A stretch of DNA of 64,000 bases from Xenophilus sp. Marseille-Q4582 (GTDB lineage: Bacteria > Pseudomonadota > Gammaproteobacteria > Burkholderiales > Burkholderiaceae_C): assembly GCF_916700565.1 (NCBI RefSeq), contig NZ_CAKAKO010000001.1:620001-684000 (forward strand), given 5' to 3'. Below, piece by piece: positions 2,828 to 46,215 of this stretch (its first letter is position 1; each line of letters starts with the position of its first letter). Below the pieces are notes generated by a model. The model worked only from the letters and a program-made list of their open reading frames with translations. It had not been told where the DNA came from and searched no databases. Position numbers and translations under genes: made by a program.

Positions 2828-2964
2828 GATCGGATAAAAAATTAGCCAATTTGCTAGGAAAACAGGAATTCTAAGTCGAGCAGAGCGGCAGCTGCATCCA
2901 TCGGAAAGAAAAATATTCAATCAAATCAATGGCTTGATCTGATTGGCCGCCCAGCGAACCAGTC

Positions 2965-2980
2965 TGGCACAGGTCCTGCA
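2965..2980 (+). promoter_or_regulatory. Sigma-54 (-24/-12) promoter of the rtc operon
   Basis: TGGCAC-AGGTC-CTGCA matches the sigma-54 consensus (TGGCAC, five bases, TTGCW), with GG and GC exactly ten bases apart. It points away from rtcR, 137 bases from its start codon, so transcription should begin near 2990 and run into the structured segment and slipin. The AT-rich block 2828-2945 between it and rtcR is the natural place for RtcR binding sites and the rtcR promoter. Confidence 0.85.
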
Positions 2981-3111
2981 AGACCTCACCCGTCCGGTTG
3001 CAACATGTGCTGCTCACAGGCGCCGCTTGGGGCTCAAGCCCTGCGGCCCGGTGCCATGGACCAGGTCATGCCTTGGGTCGGTGGTATGCCGCTGCCAGGT
3101 TGTCGGATGTG

Positions 3112-3160
3112 AATTCATGCCGTCGGGGCGTACAGGGTTCGAGTCCCTGGTGAATTTCCA
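3112..3160 (+). other. tRNA-like minihelix 1 with templated CCA
   Basis: AATTCAT (3112-3118) pairs with GTGAATT (3150-3156) as a 7-bp acceptor-type stem. A perfect T-arm lies between them: CAGGG, loop TTCGAGT, CCCTG (3133-3149). A discriminator-like T (3157) and CCA (3158-3160) follow directly. The D and anticodon arms are replaced by 14 bases (3119-3132) that could form a tiny GCC/GGC hairpin. Confidence 0.65.
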
Positions 3161-3194
3161 ACCCCTGCAAAGGGAACGGAAAGCGGGCCCTTCG

Positions 3195-3227
3195 GGGTCG
3201 GCGAACGGGTTCGAGTCCCGCTGACTC
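3195..3227 (+). other. tRNA-like minihelix 2 (T-loop hairpin)
   Basis: GGGTCGG (3195-3201) pairs with CTGACTC (3221-3227) with two G-U wobbles, enclosing a CGGG/CCCG stem and the same TTCGAGT T-loop (3210-3216). Only CGAA (3202-3205) intervenes, so acceptor and T stems would stack directly. The 3' end lacks CCA. A UUCG hairpin (CCC-TTCG-GGG, 3188-3197) is a competing fold of the 5' arm. Confidence 0.55.
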
Positions 3228-3537
3228 GCGGTGGCAACACCGCTTTGAATGGGATGAAAGTCCCATGCCCCGGTCAGGCGGCGCGCGAGGAGGCGCTTGT
3301 CCTCCATTGCGCCACGCCCGGCCGACACAGGCCGCCTGTGCCCCGTGCCCTTGGCCGGGAAGCGGGTGCAGCCAGCCCGGGCGGGAGGCGAGTGGCAGGC
3401 CGGTTCGGCTTGCCTGCGTCACCGCCCACCCGGGACCGCTGCACCGGCCCCGTTCAGGCAGGAAGCCCGCAGCCTGTGTTCAAGGGGCACCGATGGATGG
3501 GATGTTCGGCGGATACGAACAACTTTGGGAGAAGAGG

Positions 3538-4686
3538 ATGCTGGGTTTCGAAAATTTCACCGTCAAGAAGAATGAACGCGCACTGCTGCTGCGCAATGGC
3601 GATTTCGCGGGTCTGTTCGGCCCTGGCAAGCACCGCGTGTTCGGTGGCTTCGACACCTTGACCGTGGAGCGCTTCTCGTTGAACGAGCCGCTGTTCGAGC
3701 ACGAACTGGCCGATGTGCTGCGCGTGCAGGAACCGGAACTGGTGGCCCGCGAGTTCGTGCAGGTGAACCTGGGCGAAAGCGAAGTGGGCCTGCGCCATGA
3801 AGATGGCGTGCTGGTCGAGATCCTGCCGCCGGCGAGCCGCAAGCTCTACTGGCGTGGCCTGCGCGAGCAGCGCGTGGACGTGGTCGACGTGGCGGCCGAT
3901 GCGCGCCTGCCGGCCGAACTGCTGGCCAGGCTGCAAAGCGTGAACCTGCGCCCCCGTGCGGTGCGCGGCCTGGACGGCGTACTGCTGGTGCAGGTGCCGG
4001 AGTTCCATGCCGGCGTGTGGACGCTGGAAGGGCAGATGCAGGAACTGCTGGCGCCGGGGGCGCATGGCTTTTGGCGCTTCAACCGCCAGGTGGCCGTGAC
4101 AACGGTTGATCTGCGCGCGCAGATCGCCGAAGTGAGCGGCCAGGAAATCCTGACGCGTGACAAGGTCGGCCTGCGCCTGAACCTGTCGGCGGTGTGGCGC
4201 TACACCGACGTGCGGCTGGCCTTGGCCCAGATGCCGAAGCCGGCCGACCATGTGTACCGCGAACTCCAGTTCGGTCTGCGGGCCGCCGTGGGTGAGCAGA
4301 ACCTCGATGCGCTGCTGGAGAGCAAGGCGGCCATCGACGCGTCGGTGCTGGCCCAGGTGCGCGAGCGCTTGGCGGGCTCGGGCGTGGCGCTGGAAAGCGT
4401 GGGCGTGAAGGACATCATCCTGCCGGGCGAGATGAAGAGCATCCTGGCGCAGGTCGTGGAAGCCGAGAAGTCGGCGCAGGCCAACGTGATCCGCCGCCGC
4501 GAAGAAACCGCAGCGACCCGTTCGCTGTTGAACACGGCCAAGGTGATGGAGGGCAACCCCGTCGCCTTGCGGATGAAGGAACTGGAAACCCTGGAACGCG
4601 TGGCCGAGCGGATCGACAAGATCTCGGTGGTCGGCGGCCTGGACCAGGTCCTCAACGGGCTGGTGACCCTGCGTCAACCGGCCTGA
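3538..4686 (+). CDS. Slipin (SPFH/band-7 family) protein of the rtc operon
   Basis: 382 residues from ATG 3538, chosen because GGGAGAAG lies just upstream; an in-frame ATG at 3493 is possible. The middle carries the SPFH/band-7 core (RQVAVTTVDLRAQ, GQEILTRDKVGLRLNLSAVWRYTD, LAGSGVALESVGVKDIILPGEMK), and the C-terminus is helical (AEKSAQANVIRRREETAATRSLL), typical of oligomerising slipins. There is no obvious N-terminal membrane segment. Slipins occur in RtcR-controlled operons of several bacteria, but their role in RNA repair is unknown. The gene sits 102 bases upstream of rtcB on the same strand and is probably co-transcribed with it. Confidence 0.9.
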   Translation: MLGFENFTVKKNERALLLRNGDFAGLFGPGKHRVFGGFDTLTVERFSLNEPLFEHELADVLRVQEPELVAREFVQVNLGESEVGLRHEDGVLVEILPPASRKLYWRGLREQRVDVVDVAADARLPAELLARLQSVNLRPRAVRGLDGVLLVQVPEFHAGVWTLEGQMQELLAPGAHGFWRFNRQVAVTTVDLRAQIAEVSGQEILTRDKVGLRLNLSAVWRYTDVRLALAQMPKPADHVYRELQFGLRAAVGEQNLDALLESKAAIDASVLAQVRERLAGSGVALESVGVKDIILPGEMKSILAQVVEAEKSAQANVIRRREETAATRSLLNTAKVMEGNPVALRMKELETLERVAERIDKISVVGGLDQVLNGLVTLRQPA

Positions 4687-4788: not shown

Positions 4789-6018
4789 ATGAACAACGAA
4801 CCCAACTACCAGCTGCACGAAGTCGCGGGCGGCGTGCCCGTGAAGATGTGGACCCAGGGCGTGCCCGTGGAAGCCGAGGCGCAGCAGCAGCTCGAGAACG
4901 CCGCGCGCCTGCCGATCGTGTTCAAGCACATCGCGGCCATGCCCGATGTGCACTACGGCATCGGAGCGACCGTGGGCTCGGTGATCCCGACCTTCAAGGC
5001 CATCATCCCGGCCGCGGTGGGCGTGGACATCGGCTGCGGCATGATGGCCTGCAAGACCACGCTGCACGCCAACGACCTGCCCGACAACCTGGGCCCGCTG
5101 CGCGCCGCGATCGAGAAGGCCGTGCCGCACGGCTCCAACCCCAAGCGCATGGGCCGCGACAAGGGGTCGTGGGAGACGCCACCCAGCGAGACCGACGTGG
5201 CCTGGGCGCTGCTCAAGGACGAGTTCGATGCGATCTGCGAGGCGCATCCGCGCATCAGGAACACCAACAACCACAAGCACCTGGGAACGCTCGGTACCGG
5301 CAACCACTTCATCGAGGTCTGCCTCGACGAAGCGGGCGCCGTGTGGTTCATGCTGCACTCGGGTTCGCGTGGCGTGGGCAATGCCATCGGCACCCACTTC
5401 ATCGAACTGGCGAAGAAGGATGCCGAGCAGCACCAGCGCAACCTGCCCGACCAGGACCTGGCGTACTTCGAGGAAGGCGCGCAGTACTTCGGCGACTACG
5501 TGCGAGCGGTGGGCTGGGCCCAGAAGTTCGCGCGTGCGAACCGCGAAGTGATGATGCAGCGCGTGGTCGCGGCCGCGCGCAAGGTCATCACGAAGCCCTT
5601 CGAGGCGCATGTGGAAGCGGTGAACTGCCACCACAACTACGTGAGCCGCGAAACGCACTTCGGCGAGGACGTGCTGGTGACCCGCAAGGGCGCGGTGAGC
5701 GCCAAGGCGGGCGAGCTGGGCATCATTCCGGGCAGCATGGGTGCCAAGAGCTACATCGTGCGCGGCAAGGGCAACCCCGAGTCGTTCATGAGCTGCAGCC
5801 ACGGCGCGGGCCGCAAGATGAGCCGCACCAAGGCCAAGAAGCTCTACACCGTGGCCGACCAGATCGCCGCCACCGAAGGCGTGGAATGCCGCAAGGACGC
5901 CGACGTGATCGACGAGATCCCGATGGCCTACAAGGACATCGACGCCGTGATGGCAGCGCAGCAGGACCTGGTGGACGTGGTGTACACGCTCAAGCAGGTG
6001 GTGTGCGTGAAGGGCTGA
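4789..6018 (+). CDS. rtcB: RtcB, RNA-splicing ligase / 3'-phosphate RNA ligase
   Basis: 409 residues, the normal RtcB length, from ATG 4789 behind a strong AAAGGAG. RtcB joins RNA 2',3'-cyclic phosphate or 3'-phosphate ends to 5'-OH ends, using GTP and Mn2+. The metal and guanylate residues are all visible: VGVDIGCGM (Asp80, Cys83), GTGNHF (His173), HSGSRG (His190), NCHHNY (His281/282) and the guanylated His338 in SCSHGAGR. The ribosome site follows an (AG)7 run at 4759-4772. The gene lies between slipin and rtcA, so expression should depend on RtcR and sigma-54. Confidence 0.98.
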   Translation: MNNEPNYQLHEVAGGVPVKMWTQGVPVEAEAQQQLENAARLPIVFKHIAAMPDVHYGIGATVGSVIPTFKAIIPAAVGVDIGCGMMACKTTLHANDLPDNLGPLRAAIEKAVPHGSNPKRMGRDKGSWETPPSETDVAWALLKDEFDAICEAHPRIRNTNNHKHLGTLGTGNHFIEVCLDEAGAVWFMLHSGSRGVGNAIGTHFIELAKKDAEQHQRNLPDQDLAYFEEGAQYFGDYVRAVGWAQKFARANREVMMQRVVAAARKVITKPFEAHVEAVNCHHNYVSRETHFGEDVLVTRKGAVSAKAGELGIIPGSMGAKSYIVRGKGNPESFMSCSHGAGRKMSRTKAKKLYTVADQIAATEGVECRKDADVIDEIPMAYKDIDAVMAAQQDLVDVVYTLKQVVCVKG

Positions 6019-6141: not shown

Positions 6142-7233
6142 ATGAACGACAACGTGATCACGCACGCGGCGCGGCAGGCGCCCGAAATCGAACTCGACGG
6201 TGCCGAAGGCGAGGGCGGCGGCCAGATCCTGCGCACGGGCCTGGCCCTGTCCATCGTCACGCAGCGGCCGCTGGCCCTGACGCGCATCCGCGCGCGCCGG
6301 CCCAAGCCGGGCCTGATGCGCCAGCACCTGGCCTGCGTGCAGGCGGCCGCCGCCATCAGCGGCGCGCAGGTGCAGGGCGCGGAACTGGGCGCGCAGGCGC
6401 TGCATTTCGTGCCCGGCCCGGTGCGCGCGGGCGACTACGCCTTCGGCATCGCCAGCGCGGGCAGCTGCACCCTGGTGCTGCAGACCGTGCTGCCGCCGCT
6501 GTGGCTGGCCGACGGGCCCAGCCGCGTGCAGCTGCAGGGCGGCACGCACAACCCGATGGCGCCGTGCTTCCATTTCCTGGACGCGGCCTATGCACCGCTG
6601 CTGCGGCGCCTGGGCGGCGACCTGCAGCTGGACCTGCGCCGCCACGGCTTCTACCCGGCCGGCGGCGGGCAACTGGGGGCACAGATCACGCCGGCACCCG
6701 CCCCGGGGCCGCGGCCCTTCGACCTGATGGCGCGCGGCCCGCGGCTCAGCGCCCATGCCGAATGCCTGGTGCCGGGCCTGGCGCGGCAGATCGGCACGCG
6801 CGAGCTGCGCGTGCTGCACGAGGCGCTGGGCTGGTCGGGGGAGCAGTTGCGCATCGGCCCTGCGCGGCAGGACGAAGGCCCCGGCAACGTGCTGATGGCC
6901 ACGCTGGCTTATGCGCACAGCACCGAGCTGATCACCGTGTTCGGCGAACGCGGCCGGCCGGCCGAAGACGTGGCGCAGGACCTGGTGCAGCAGGTGCGCG
7001 CCTGGGAGCGCAGCGGCGCGGCGCTGGGCGAGCACCTGGCCGACCAGTGGGTGCTGCTGCTGGCGCTGGCCTGCTGGCGCAGCGGCTGCGGTGCCGCCTT
7101 CACCTGCACCGGGGTCAGCGAGCACCTGCGCACCAACTGCGCGGTGATCGAGCGTTTCCTGCCCGTGCGCATCGCCCTTGAGCCCGCCGCCGGCGACGGG
7201 CTGCCGGCCTGCGTGCGCGTCATGCCGCGCTGA
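6142..7233 (+). CDS. rtcA: RtcA, RNA 3'-terminal phosphate cyclase
   Basis: 363 residues from ATG 6142; an in-frame ATG at 6118 would add eight residues. RtcA converts RNA 3'-phosphate to 2',3'-cyclic phosphate with ATP through an adenylated histidine. Diagnostic motifs are EGEGGGQILRTGLALS at the N-terminus, RPKPGLMRQHLACVQA, GGGTHN-like QGGTHNPMAP, HGFYPAGGGQ, and the C-terminal SEHLRTN block that holds the nucleophilic His. It follows rtcB by about 120 bases and is the last gene of the rtc operon. Confidence 0.96.
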   Translation: MNDNVITHAARQAPEIELDGAEGEGGGQILRTGLALSIVTQRPLALTRIRARRPKPGLMRQHLACVQAAAAISGAQVQGAELGAQALHFVPGPVRAGDYAFGIASAGSCTLVLQTVLPPLWLADGPSRVQLQGGTHNPMAPCFHFLDAAYAPLLRRLGGDLQLDLRRHGFYPAGGGQLGAQITPAPAPGPRPFDLMARGPRLSAHAECLVPGLARQIGTRELRVLHEALGWSGEQLRIGPARQDEGPGNVLMATLAYAHSTELITVFGERGRPAEDVAQDLVQQVRAWERSGAALGEHLADQWVLLLALACWRSGCGAAFTCTGVSEHLRTNCAVIERFLPVRIALEPAAGDGLPACVRVMPR

Positions 7234-40553: not shown

Positions 40554-40628
40554 GTCTCTGTAGTTCAATGGATAGAACGGCCCCCTCCTAAGGGGCAGAT
40601 GCAGGTTCGATTCCTGCCAGGGGCACCA
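40554..40628 (+). tRNA. tRNA-Arg (anticodon CCT)
   Basis: 75 bases including a templated CCA (40626-40628). Acceptor GTCTCTG pairs with CAGGGGC, the anticodon stem GCCCC/GGGGC closes the loop CTCCTAA with anticodon CCT, and the T-arm is GCAGG-TTCGATT-CCTGC. It decodes the rare AGG codon and is a common integration site for mobile DNA. Confidence 0.96.
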
Positions 40629-45837: not shown

Positions 45838-46215
45838 CGGTACCCTCCCCGGGCGGCTGGCCTGCCACGGACTGCCGCAAGCCCGGCCGTCGCGCTGCGG
45901 CGACGCGCATGAGCGGATGGCCCCGGCGCCCCTTGCGGCAGGTGCCGTCCCGCGTTGGATCGGTAGAGCAAAGGCATGGCAGGGGGCGAGAGGCTGGCTG
46001 GCACGGCAGGCGGCAAGCGGCATACCCGTGATCCGGCCCCTGCCTTGCCGGCAGCAGGCGCGGATGCGCGCACCTGCAAGCCCTGGTGCCATCGGCCTAC
46101 CGGACGTGGCCCGGACGGCCCGGCATGCTTGCGTGCTCGAAGCTGCGGGCCGGCCGCAGCGTCCGCGCCGCCTGCGGGCCATGGAGCCGGGCAGAGCCGC
46201 CAAAGGACGCCACCG
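45838..46215. other. Intergenic stretch without recognised gene
   Basis: 378 bases between divergent small genes. Open frames cross it, but none has a start with a ribosome site or a recognisable protein pattern. It presumably carries promoters for both neighbours; none stands out. Confidence 0.5.

Follow-up and report, generated by a model that had tools for sequence, protein, structure and literature searches.

Between the divergent rtcR gene and the slipin gene that opens an rtcB–rtcA RNA-repair operon in Xenophilus sp. Marseille-Q4582 lies a highly structured leader, and the question it raises is what its RNA is for. We analysed the locus within a window of 64,000 nt (GCF_916700565.1, contig NZ_CAKAKO010000001.1, positions 620,001–684,000), in which rtcR lies on the minus strand and is followed by the leader, slipin, rtcB and rtcA, all on the plus strand. 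The original prediction took the leader to be a tRNA-mimicking RNA expressed from a sigma-54 promoter, and proposed that it could act as a substrate or decoy, or as a self-encoded signal for RtcR. We find that the RNA is conserved in relatives, that its helices covary and that it is tied to slipin. As to its role, our preferred interpretation, which we place a little short of an even chance, is that it is a Y-RNA-like scaffold and the partner of slipin in a slipin/RNA-repair complex; we infer that the leader is transcribed and processed, acts in trans and binds slipin.

Relatives of the locus were taken from a protein search with slipin, of whose 382 matches the best 80 (L001–L080) were retained; L078, which is cut, was excluded, leaving 79 loci from Variovorax, Pseudomonas, Polaromonas, Accumulibacter, Thiobacillus and other genera. 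In 69 of these 79 loci the 700 nt before slipin contain a strict T-arm, and in 52 they contain at least two. The ten loci without one comprise nine Pseudomonas species and L026, which has a near-miss T-arm. No T-arm was found upstream of 13 distant SPFH genes, and control stretches downstream of slipin contained one in 0 of 69 and 12 of 75 cases, the 12 belonging to a second, separate tRNA-like RNA described below. In most relatives the second of the two tRNA-like modules is a near-complete cloverleaf whose acceptor frays at its end. In an alignment of module 2 from 42 loci, hand-picked for diversity from the 70 that have it and not including the window, 92.8% of cells are paired and 13 of 20 pairs show changes on both sides, compared with at most 44.8% of cells paired when the partner is moved by one to three columns. 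Four D-stem pairs are invariant across the alignment, and the D-stem and T-arm are far more strictly kept than the acceptor, which is paired in 78.6% of cells. Strong covariation of the stems in related rtcR–slipin loci, on which the original prediction had hung its claim, is therefore found at the level of the family.

The anticodon arm is the variable part of these mimics. Its loop in module 2 has 7 nt in 31 of the 42 aligned sequences and 4–6 nt in the other 11, some of which are tetraloops, and the 31 seven-base loops carry 17 different triplets, with even the neighbours L017 and L018 differing; this variation excludes constant decoding. Module 1 is also a cloverleaf in Pseudomonas, UUCG-capped in some species, and there the two modules abut, while in many beta-proteobacteria it is reduced, a small hairpin replacing the anticodon arm. 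The Rfam tRNA family matches modules in 10 of 12 relatives scanned. The window stands at the extreme of this series: neither of its modules has an anticodon arm, and the D-arm is missing from module 2 as well.

The mimics are preceded by a 5′ core domain (3011–3093, plus strand), which is absent from the original prediction. In the window, ACAGG at 3016–3020 pairs with CCGGT at 3048–3052 around a hairpin, a second stem runs from 3053 to 3085, and ATGCCGC follows at 3086–3092; the family shares this layout (ACRGG, hairpin, CCGGTG, second stem, ATGCCGC), with ATGCCGC invariant in the alignment. That alignment holds 42 sequences, the window and 41 loci hand-picked for diversity from the 73 with the ATGCCGC motif, and has 93.4% of cells paired and both-side changes in 11 of 13 pairs, the best slid control reaching 47.7%. 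A leave-one-out core profile ranks 3011–3093 first in the 64 kb (E 7e-4), and this segment is still first when the four nearest rows are also removed (E 0.17). Our covariance model R1 gives the window core 45.5 bits, but the window is a training sequence, so that R1 E-values are not independent for the window, nor for family matches that are apparently identical to training contigs (for example, L097/L034 and L117/L001). No Rfam 15 family matches the core, in the window or in the 12 relatives scanned.

A scan of 299 genomes of the family, which as grouped for the genome scans seems to include Variovorax, gave 25 core matches at E 4.3e-5 or better, 24 of them with slipin within 1.5 kb, although some of these genomes are also training sources. 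Weaker matches (E 5e-5 to 0.01) were treated as chance: none of the five fetched (L120–L124), two of which are on short contigs, has slipin. Across the phylum the core was found at E 1e-4 in 7 of 398 genomes. Two single matches may be noted. L112 has a core of 55.8 bits, no slipin within 1.5 kb and no T-arms, and looks like a decayed locus, which would suggest that loss of slipin is followed by loss of the mimics. In the window, the second-best match to the core model, at 46016–46082 on the minus strand (20.3 bits, E 0.002), contains ATGCCGC and is probably due to chance, as it falls in the score range in which the fetched matches lack slipin.

The window's own modules follow the core. Module 1 (3112–3160, plus strand) comprises an acceptor helix (3112–3118/3150–3156), a D-like hairpin (3119–3129), a T-arm (3133–3149), the discriminator T3157 and a CCA at 3158–3160, which thus comes directly after the 7-bp acceptor helix plus one unpaired T. 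Folded alone, it forms the acceptor, the D-like hairpin, the T-arm and a free UCCA (−15.0 kcal/mol). Module 2 (3195–3227, plus strand) is a minihelix with an acceptor (3195–3201/3221–3227) and a T-arm (3206–3220), and folds alone into one long helix (−13.8). The motif GGTTCRANTCC occurs five times in the window against 0.09 expected, and 3136–3146 and 3208–3218 are among these occurrences, with the T-loops of the modules at 3138 and 3210. A T-arm closed by an acceptor helix of at least 7 bp is found at three places when both strands of the 64 kb are considered, namely in the two modules and in tRNA-Arg at 40554; among 5000 dinucleotide shuffles of 2981–3537, two contain at least one such element and none contains two. 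Three GNRA hairpins on the plus strand complete the picture: CCCT-GCAA-AGGG (3163–3174), recognized between the modules by sequence and fold, GCGGTG-GCAA-CACCGC (3228–3243) and TGGGAT-GAAA-GTCCCA (3250–3265). The last two recur at their positions with paired changes in Variovorax and L119, the former showing a paired change in L011 as well and only the latter retaining its GNRA loop (GAAA) there. The tandem T-loops, the two acceptor-like stems, the CCA end and the GNRA hairpins that had been read from the bare sequence are all confirmed by these analyses.

Neither module of the window is found by ARAGORN or by the Rfam tRNA family, and the candidate assignment as tRNA genes with a full cloverleaf and a 7-base anticodon loop was rejected. 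The closest likeness of module 1 to a known family is to mascRNA/menRNA (RF01684), with which it shares an acceptor, a D-like hairpin, a T-arm, a CCA end and the lack of a full anticodon arm. In a 711-base search it reaches 33.5 bits against that family (E 6.2e-5), less than the gathering threshold of 42.5. mascRNA is a by-product of an animal long non-coding RNA, and convergence is likely; module 2 gives a weak match of 15.4 bits.

The predicted promoter of the leader is a −24/−12 site, TGGCACaggtccTGCA (2965–2980, plus strand), which is exact and is the sole TGGCACN6TGCA match in the window. Taken alone the site is weak, because 0.36 matches are expected by chance in the window, and 31 of 100 shuffles contain at least one. 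It gains weight because 57 of the 61 relatives with adjacent rtcR have a −24/−12 site in the 900 nt before slipin, compared with 0 of the 18 without; the canonical promoter originally placed here thus holds, as an exact match that is conserved along with adjacent rtcR. The window combines this site with a divergent rtcR, and membership of the RtcR/sigma-54 regulon is predicted from sequence. The leader RNA would run from a start placed by reference to the promoter to the slipin start codon (2991–3537, plus strand), and no sigma-70-like promoter or plus-strand terminator-like site was found in it. The extent first given, 280 structured bases within 2965–3270, needs two corrections: the structured RNA starts earlier than had been stated, with the core from 3011, and the leader reaches the slipin start at about 3538. 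The folding z-score of 2993–3300 is −3.03, none of 100 shuffles being as stable. A plus-strand frame at 2943–3224 (93 amino acids) spans the modules; the covariation, however, sits in RNA pairs, and the leader is apparently a conserved structured RNA that is non-coding.

If this RNA is made under RtcR, is RtcR its partner? rtcR is adjacent in 61 of the 79 loci, and the T-arm is present in all 18 loci without adjacent rtcR as well as in 51 of those with it. The constant companion of the RNA is therefore slipin and not RtcR, because the T-arm stays where rtcR, the promoter and the enzymes change. In a class sample separate from L001–L080 (369 genomes, 20 of which, besides the window's own, have slipin), the distance from slipin to an upstream T-arm is at most 700 nt in 18 of 20 loci and at most 1400 nt in the other two, and rtcR is in the fetched stretch of only one of the 20. 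The window itself has both marks of the slipin-associated leader, a T-arm within 700 nt upstream of slipin and the 5′ core. Among 20 genomes checked, which cover 20 of the 22 loci lacking a sigma-54 match and include many draft or metagenome assemblies, 14 are without any RtcR.

Loci without adjacent rtcR have companions of their own. The stretches fetched for 12 of these 18 loci include an HNH endonuclease gene (upstream of the RNA in 11, and behind slipin in L072), compared with 0 of the 61 others. In 10 of the 18, ARAGORN identifies an array of at least four tRNAs, and up to 14 in L034, upstream of the core and the module pair, whereas no upstream array was found in the 40 of the 61 rtcR-adjacent loci that were run. 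The array loci (L034:54–2490, and also L017–L020, L024, L028, L072, L074 and L076), most of which have the HNH gene, may hold a bank of replacement tRNAs that is linked to the repair of RNA.

Shorter leaders stand before slipin and RlaP (PF10127) in E. coli and Citrobacter, where a −24/−12-like site precedes a reduced core and one T-arm; no rtcB is annotated in the fetched stretches of these loci. E. coli-type leader DNA is present in 1624 of 5426 complete E. coli genomes. At the minimal-leader loci (L128:4680–6922, L130:4660–6913 and L131), rtcR is annotated alongside in Citrobacter and not in the two E. coli records viewed. R1 does not detect the E. coli-type leaders and yields one weak match (19.9 bits) in the 21 sources made up of the class sample and E. 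coli. The core and the T-arms thus diverge separately.

These findings are most readily accommodated by the scaffold interpretation. The RtcR/sigma-54 promoter would express slipin, RtcB and RtcA along with a structured leader RNA that consists of the conserved 5′ core, two embedded tRNA mimics and the 3′ hairpins. The tRNA elbow, in which the T-arm stacks on the acceptor helix, would dock tRNA-binding repair or processing enzymes on a slipin oligomer, by analogy with bacterial Y RNAs, which dock PNPase on Ro60. An anticodon arm seems dispensable for this, because the mimics in this lineage have shrunk to elbow and acceptor.

Several observations weigh against this interpretation. Nine Pseudomonas species (L047, L049, L051, L053, L054, L056, L068, L069 and L071) retain the core and slipin and have no T-arm, so the mimics are not essential everywhere. 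The whole-leader minimum-energy fold gives module 2 another pairing, which makes formation of the minihelix uncertain, and the minihelix also competes with a UUCG hairpin at 3186–3199. None of the loci fetched has modules shaped like the doubly reduced pair of the window, so that the evidence for the helices of that pair comes from shuffles, folding, position and the flanking core and hairpins rather than from covariation. Finally, of 22 family genomes, which with the exception of G1123 had been selected for a strong core match, 3 have a Ro60-type gene by the vWA_Ro60 profile. In G129 this gene starts about 2.6 kb away from the core and shares its contig, such that the RNA could also serve Ro60 in some lineages. 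Seven of the nine Pseudomonas loci without mimics were inspected and have plain hairpin-like sequence where the mimics would be.

Because the mimics lie in cis before slipin, a purely cis role also has to be considered, in which the modules are sites for RNase P and RNase Z, as in MALAT1/mascRNA, at which the long transcript is cut. Such cuts would release the 5′ core and define where the slipin mRNA begins, leaving the mimics themselves with no further role. Module 1 suits this role well, since it resembles mascRNA and carries an NCCA in the window, and a CCA begins at the right distance, 6–9 nt after the T-stem, in module 1 of 21 of the 49 tandem-pair relatives. The same holds for module 2 in only 7 of 42 relatives, however, the abutting modules of Pseudomonas leave little or no room for a CCA, and a processing site would need the acceptor, yet it is the acceptor that is kept less strictly than the D-stem and T-arm. 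We consider such punctuation unlikely, although a chance of some substance. The roles put forward in the original prediction fare worse. That the leader is a sacrificial substrate or competitive inhibitor of tRNA-cleaving toxins, or the source of fragments sensed by RtcR, would fit its place in the RtcR promoter path, but an anticodon-nuclease substrate needs an anticodon loop, which is missing in the window and in relatives varies between 4 and 7 nt, down to tetraloops in some, and in its triplets. A self-encoded RtcR ligand, in turn, is not expected in genomes that lack RtcR, and the mimic is present in all 18 loci without adjacent rtcR and in a sample of genomes most of which have no RtcR. 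Both the decoy and the signal are thus disfavoured, and we give the two together a small chance.

Descent from a Y RNA, with the role retained after slipin replaced Ro60, is a somewhat slimmer prospect. To our knowledge YrlA has no counterpart of the core, which counts against this origin. The genome of the window contains no Ro60 gene by either the TROVE or the vWA_Ro60 profile (no matches to either), and the original prediction had likewise seen none accompanying the RNA; TROVE has no match in 37 relatives and 19 of the 22 family genomes lack vWA_Ro60. The suggested Rfam search for YrlA and Y RNA returned nothing, no Y RNA family matching 2850–3560 up to E 5, and the candidate assignment as a Y RNA by sequence was rejected. 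Comparison with Y RNAs therefore holds only as an analogy, the tRNA-like domain being present. In favour of descent are the three family genomes that hold a Ro60-type gene together with this slipin type, a different tRNA-like RNA beside Ro60 in L153 and L155, and the setting: according to the available text of Hughes 2020 (PMC7790460), YrlA and YrlB are non-coding RNAs with a tRNA-like domain in the RtcR-controlled rtcBA operon. The bacterial Y RNAs of rsr-yrlBA-rtcBA loci thus resemble the present RNA in operon and domain, whereas the latter is found in a genome without Ro60, has no Rfam Y RNA match and stands before slipin.

About as improbable, and if anything a shade more so, is that the modules are remnants, without function as RNA, of the tRNA array found ahead of this slipin in some Burkholderiales. 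The source would be the arrays that stand before the core and the module pair in 10 of the 18 loci lacking an adjacent rtcR, and module 2 still scores as a tRNA in 10 of 12 relatives scanned. Decay is at odds, however, with mimics that covary strongly, have an invariant D-stem and accompany a separate conserved core, and that persist in 51 rtcR-adjacent loci, a group in which the 40 loci run through ARAGORN have no upstream array. We find it hardly credible that the modules are functional stress tRNAs that decode codons when the normal tRNAs are damaged: ARAGORN does assign an anticodon in some relatives, and the few module 2 copies followed by CCA could be cited for it, but the triplets are too diverse, 11 of 42 loops are too short at 4–6 nt, and ARAGORN finds neither module of the window. 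One of the original claims is supported: in a genome without Ro60, an RtcR/RtcB locus has a sigma-54 site followed by a conserved RNA that mimics tRNA.

Ro60-type genes and further tRNA-like RNAs occur around some of the relatives. The gene of G129 lies near core and slipin (G129:C24:262307–265536, around L109), while G049 and G244 have both at separate places. Thirteen of the 79 loci (L005:4173–4404, L021:4170–4402 and 11 more) have a second tRNA-like RNA, about 232 nt long, in the slipin–rtcB interval or otherwise behind slipin. Six aligned copies have a mean column identity of 92%, and the ends pair as a 7-bp acceptor that shows compensatory pairs and carries an encoded CCA. Of 399 family genomes, 12 have this RNA (L153–L164, one of these matches being short and partial), and for 9 of them the stretch fetched includes rtcB; the RNA is absent from the genome of the window at E 1e-4. 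ARAGORN calls it a tmRNA in L021, L153 and L154 (3 of 19 loci run), and the tag frame is not kept elsewhere. In L153 and L155 it lies between a gene with a Ro60 vWA domain and rtcB, and it may be a Y-type RNA.

The genes of the window are assigned as follows. RtcR, the sigma-54-dependent activator divergent to the operon, is encoded at 1223–2827 on the minus strand (Pfam RtcR PF06956, E 5.6e-78; NCBIfam RNA_repair_RtcR, 815 bits against a cut-off of 650). On the plus strand are slipin, an SPFH/Band 7 protein (3538–4686; Band_7 PF01145), the RNA ligase gene rtcB (4789–6018; RtcB PF01139, E 1.1e-129) and the RNA 3′-phosphate cyclase gene rtcA (6142–7233; RTC PF01137, E 8.6e-71). In a survey of 15 genomes of the genus, this slipin type was present only in the window's own genome, 13 others giving only remote SPFH matches (24–27% identity) and one giving none. 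The locus is thus patchily distributed, and because no other genome of the genus has this slipin, no close copy of the window's form of the leader was found.

An RNA of this general kind is probably already known. Burroughs and Aravind reportedly described, in 2016 (NAR 44:8525), SPFH/Band-7 proteins with a novel tRNA-like RNA as the cognate RNA in RNA-repair operons; their account may or may not cover a 5′ core, modules reduced as in the window and a minimal form like that of E. coli. The doubly reduced form of the window is probably new. We found no description of this RNA beside rtcR and slipin in the literature covered, which does not extend to the likeliest sources, Chen 2014 and Burroughs and Aravind 2016. 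The array loci without rtcR recall the TrcR regulon of Anabaena, in which a tRNA array, an HNH endonuclease, slipin and rtcB are under one repressor (PMC10272220, available text). Its genes, however, are scattered (all3526, alr0740 and all8564, with the trn operon on a megaplasmid), its regulator is TrcR and not RtcR, and the available text mentions no mimic RNA. HNH genes are given as the most widespread genes in mycobacterial tRNA arrays in the accessible portion of PMC5966550, and that of PMC13086221 places the P. aeruginosa SPFH gene PaFlo8 in the rtc locus and makes no mention there of an RNA.

The scaffold interpretation can be carried further, to a widespread slipin ribonucleoprotein machine in which an SPFH ring (three beta units, no N-terminal membrane helix) and an RNA mimicking the tRNA elbow, with RtcB, RtcA or RlaP docked, would repair damaged tRNA. 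Ro60/Y RNA and the vault would be its distant parallels. The vault particle consists of the major vault protein, which has an SPFH-like shoulder, vault RNA and the TROVE protein TEP1; a vault-like reading of slipin itself was not established. We regard such a machine as doubtful, though worth entertaining. If it exists, the elbow would be the only part read, which would leave the anticodon arm free to change or disappear, the single-T-arm leader of E. coli and the reduced modules of the window would be minimal forms, and the tRNA-bank loci would add replacement tRNAs to the repair.

With this family, RtcR–RtcB repair gains a companion RNA of another kind than Y RNA, one that is linked to an SPFH protein and occurs in many proteobacteria. 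The leader RNA would provide a direct handle on the function of slipin, and the natural series from full cloverleaf to bare elbow indicates which part of the tRNA is likely to be read.
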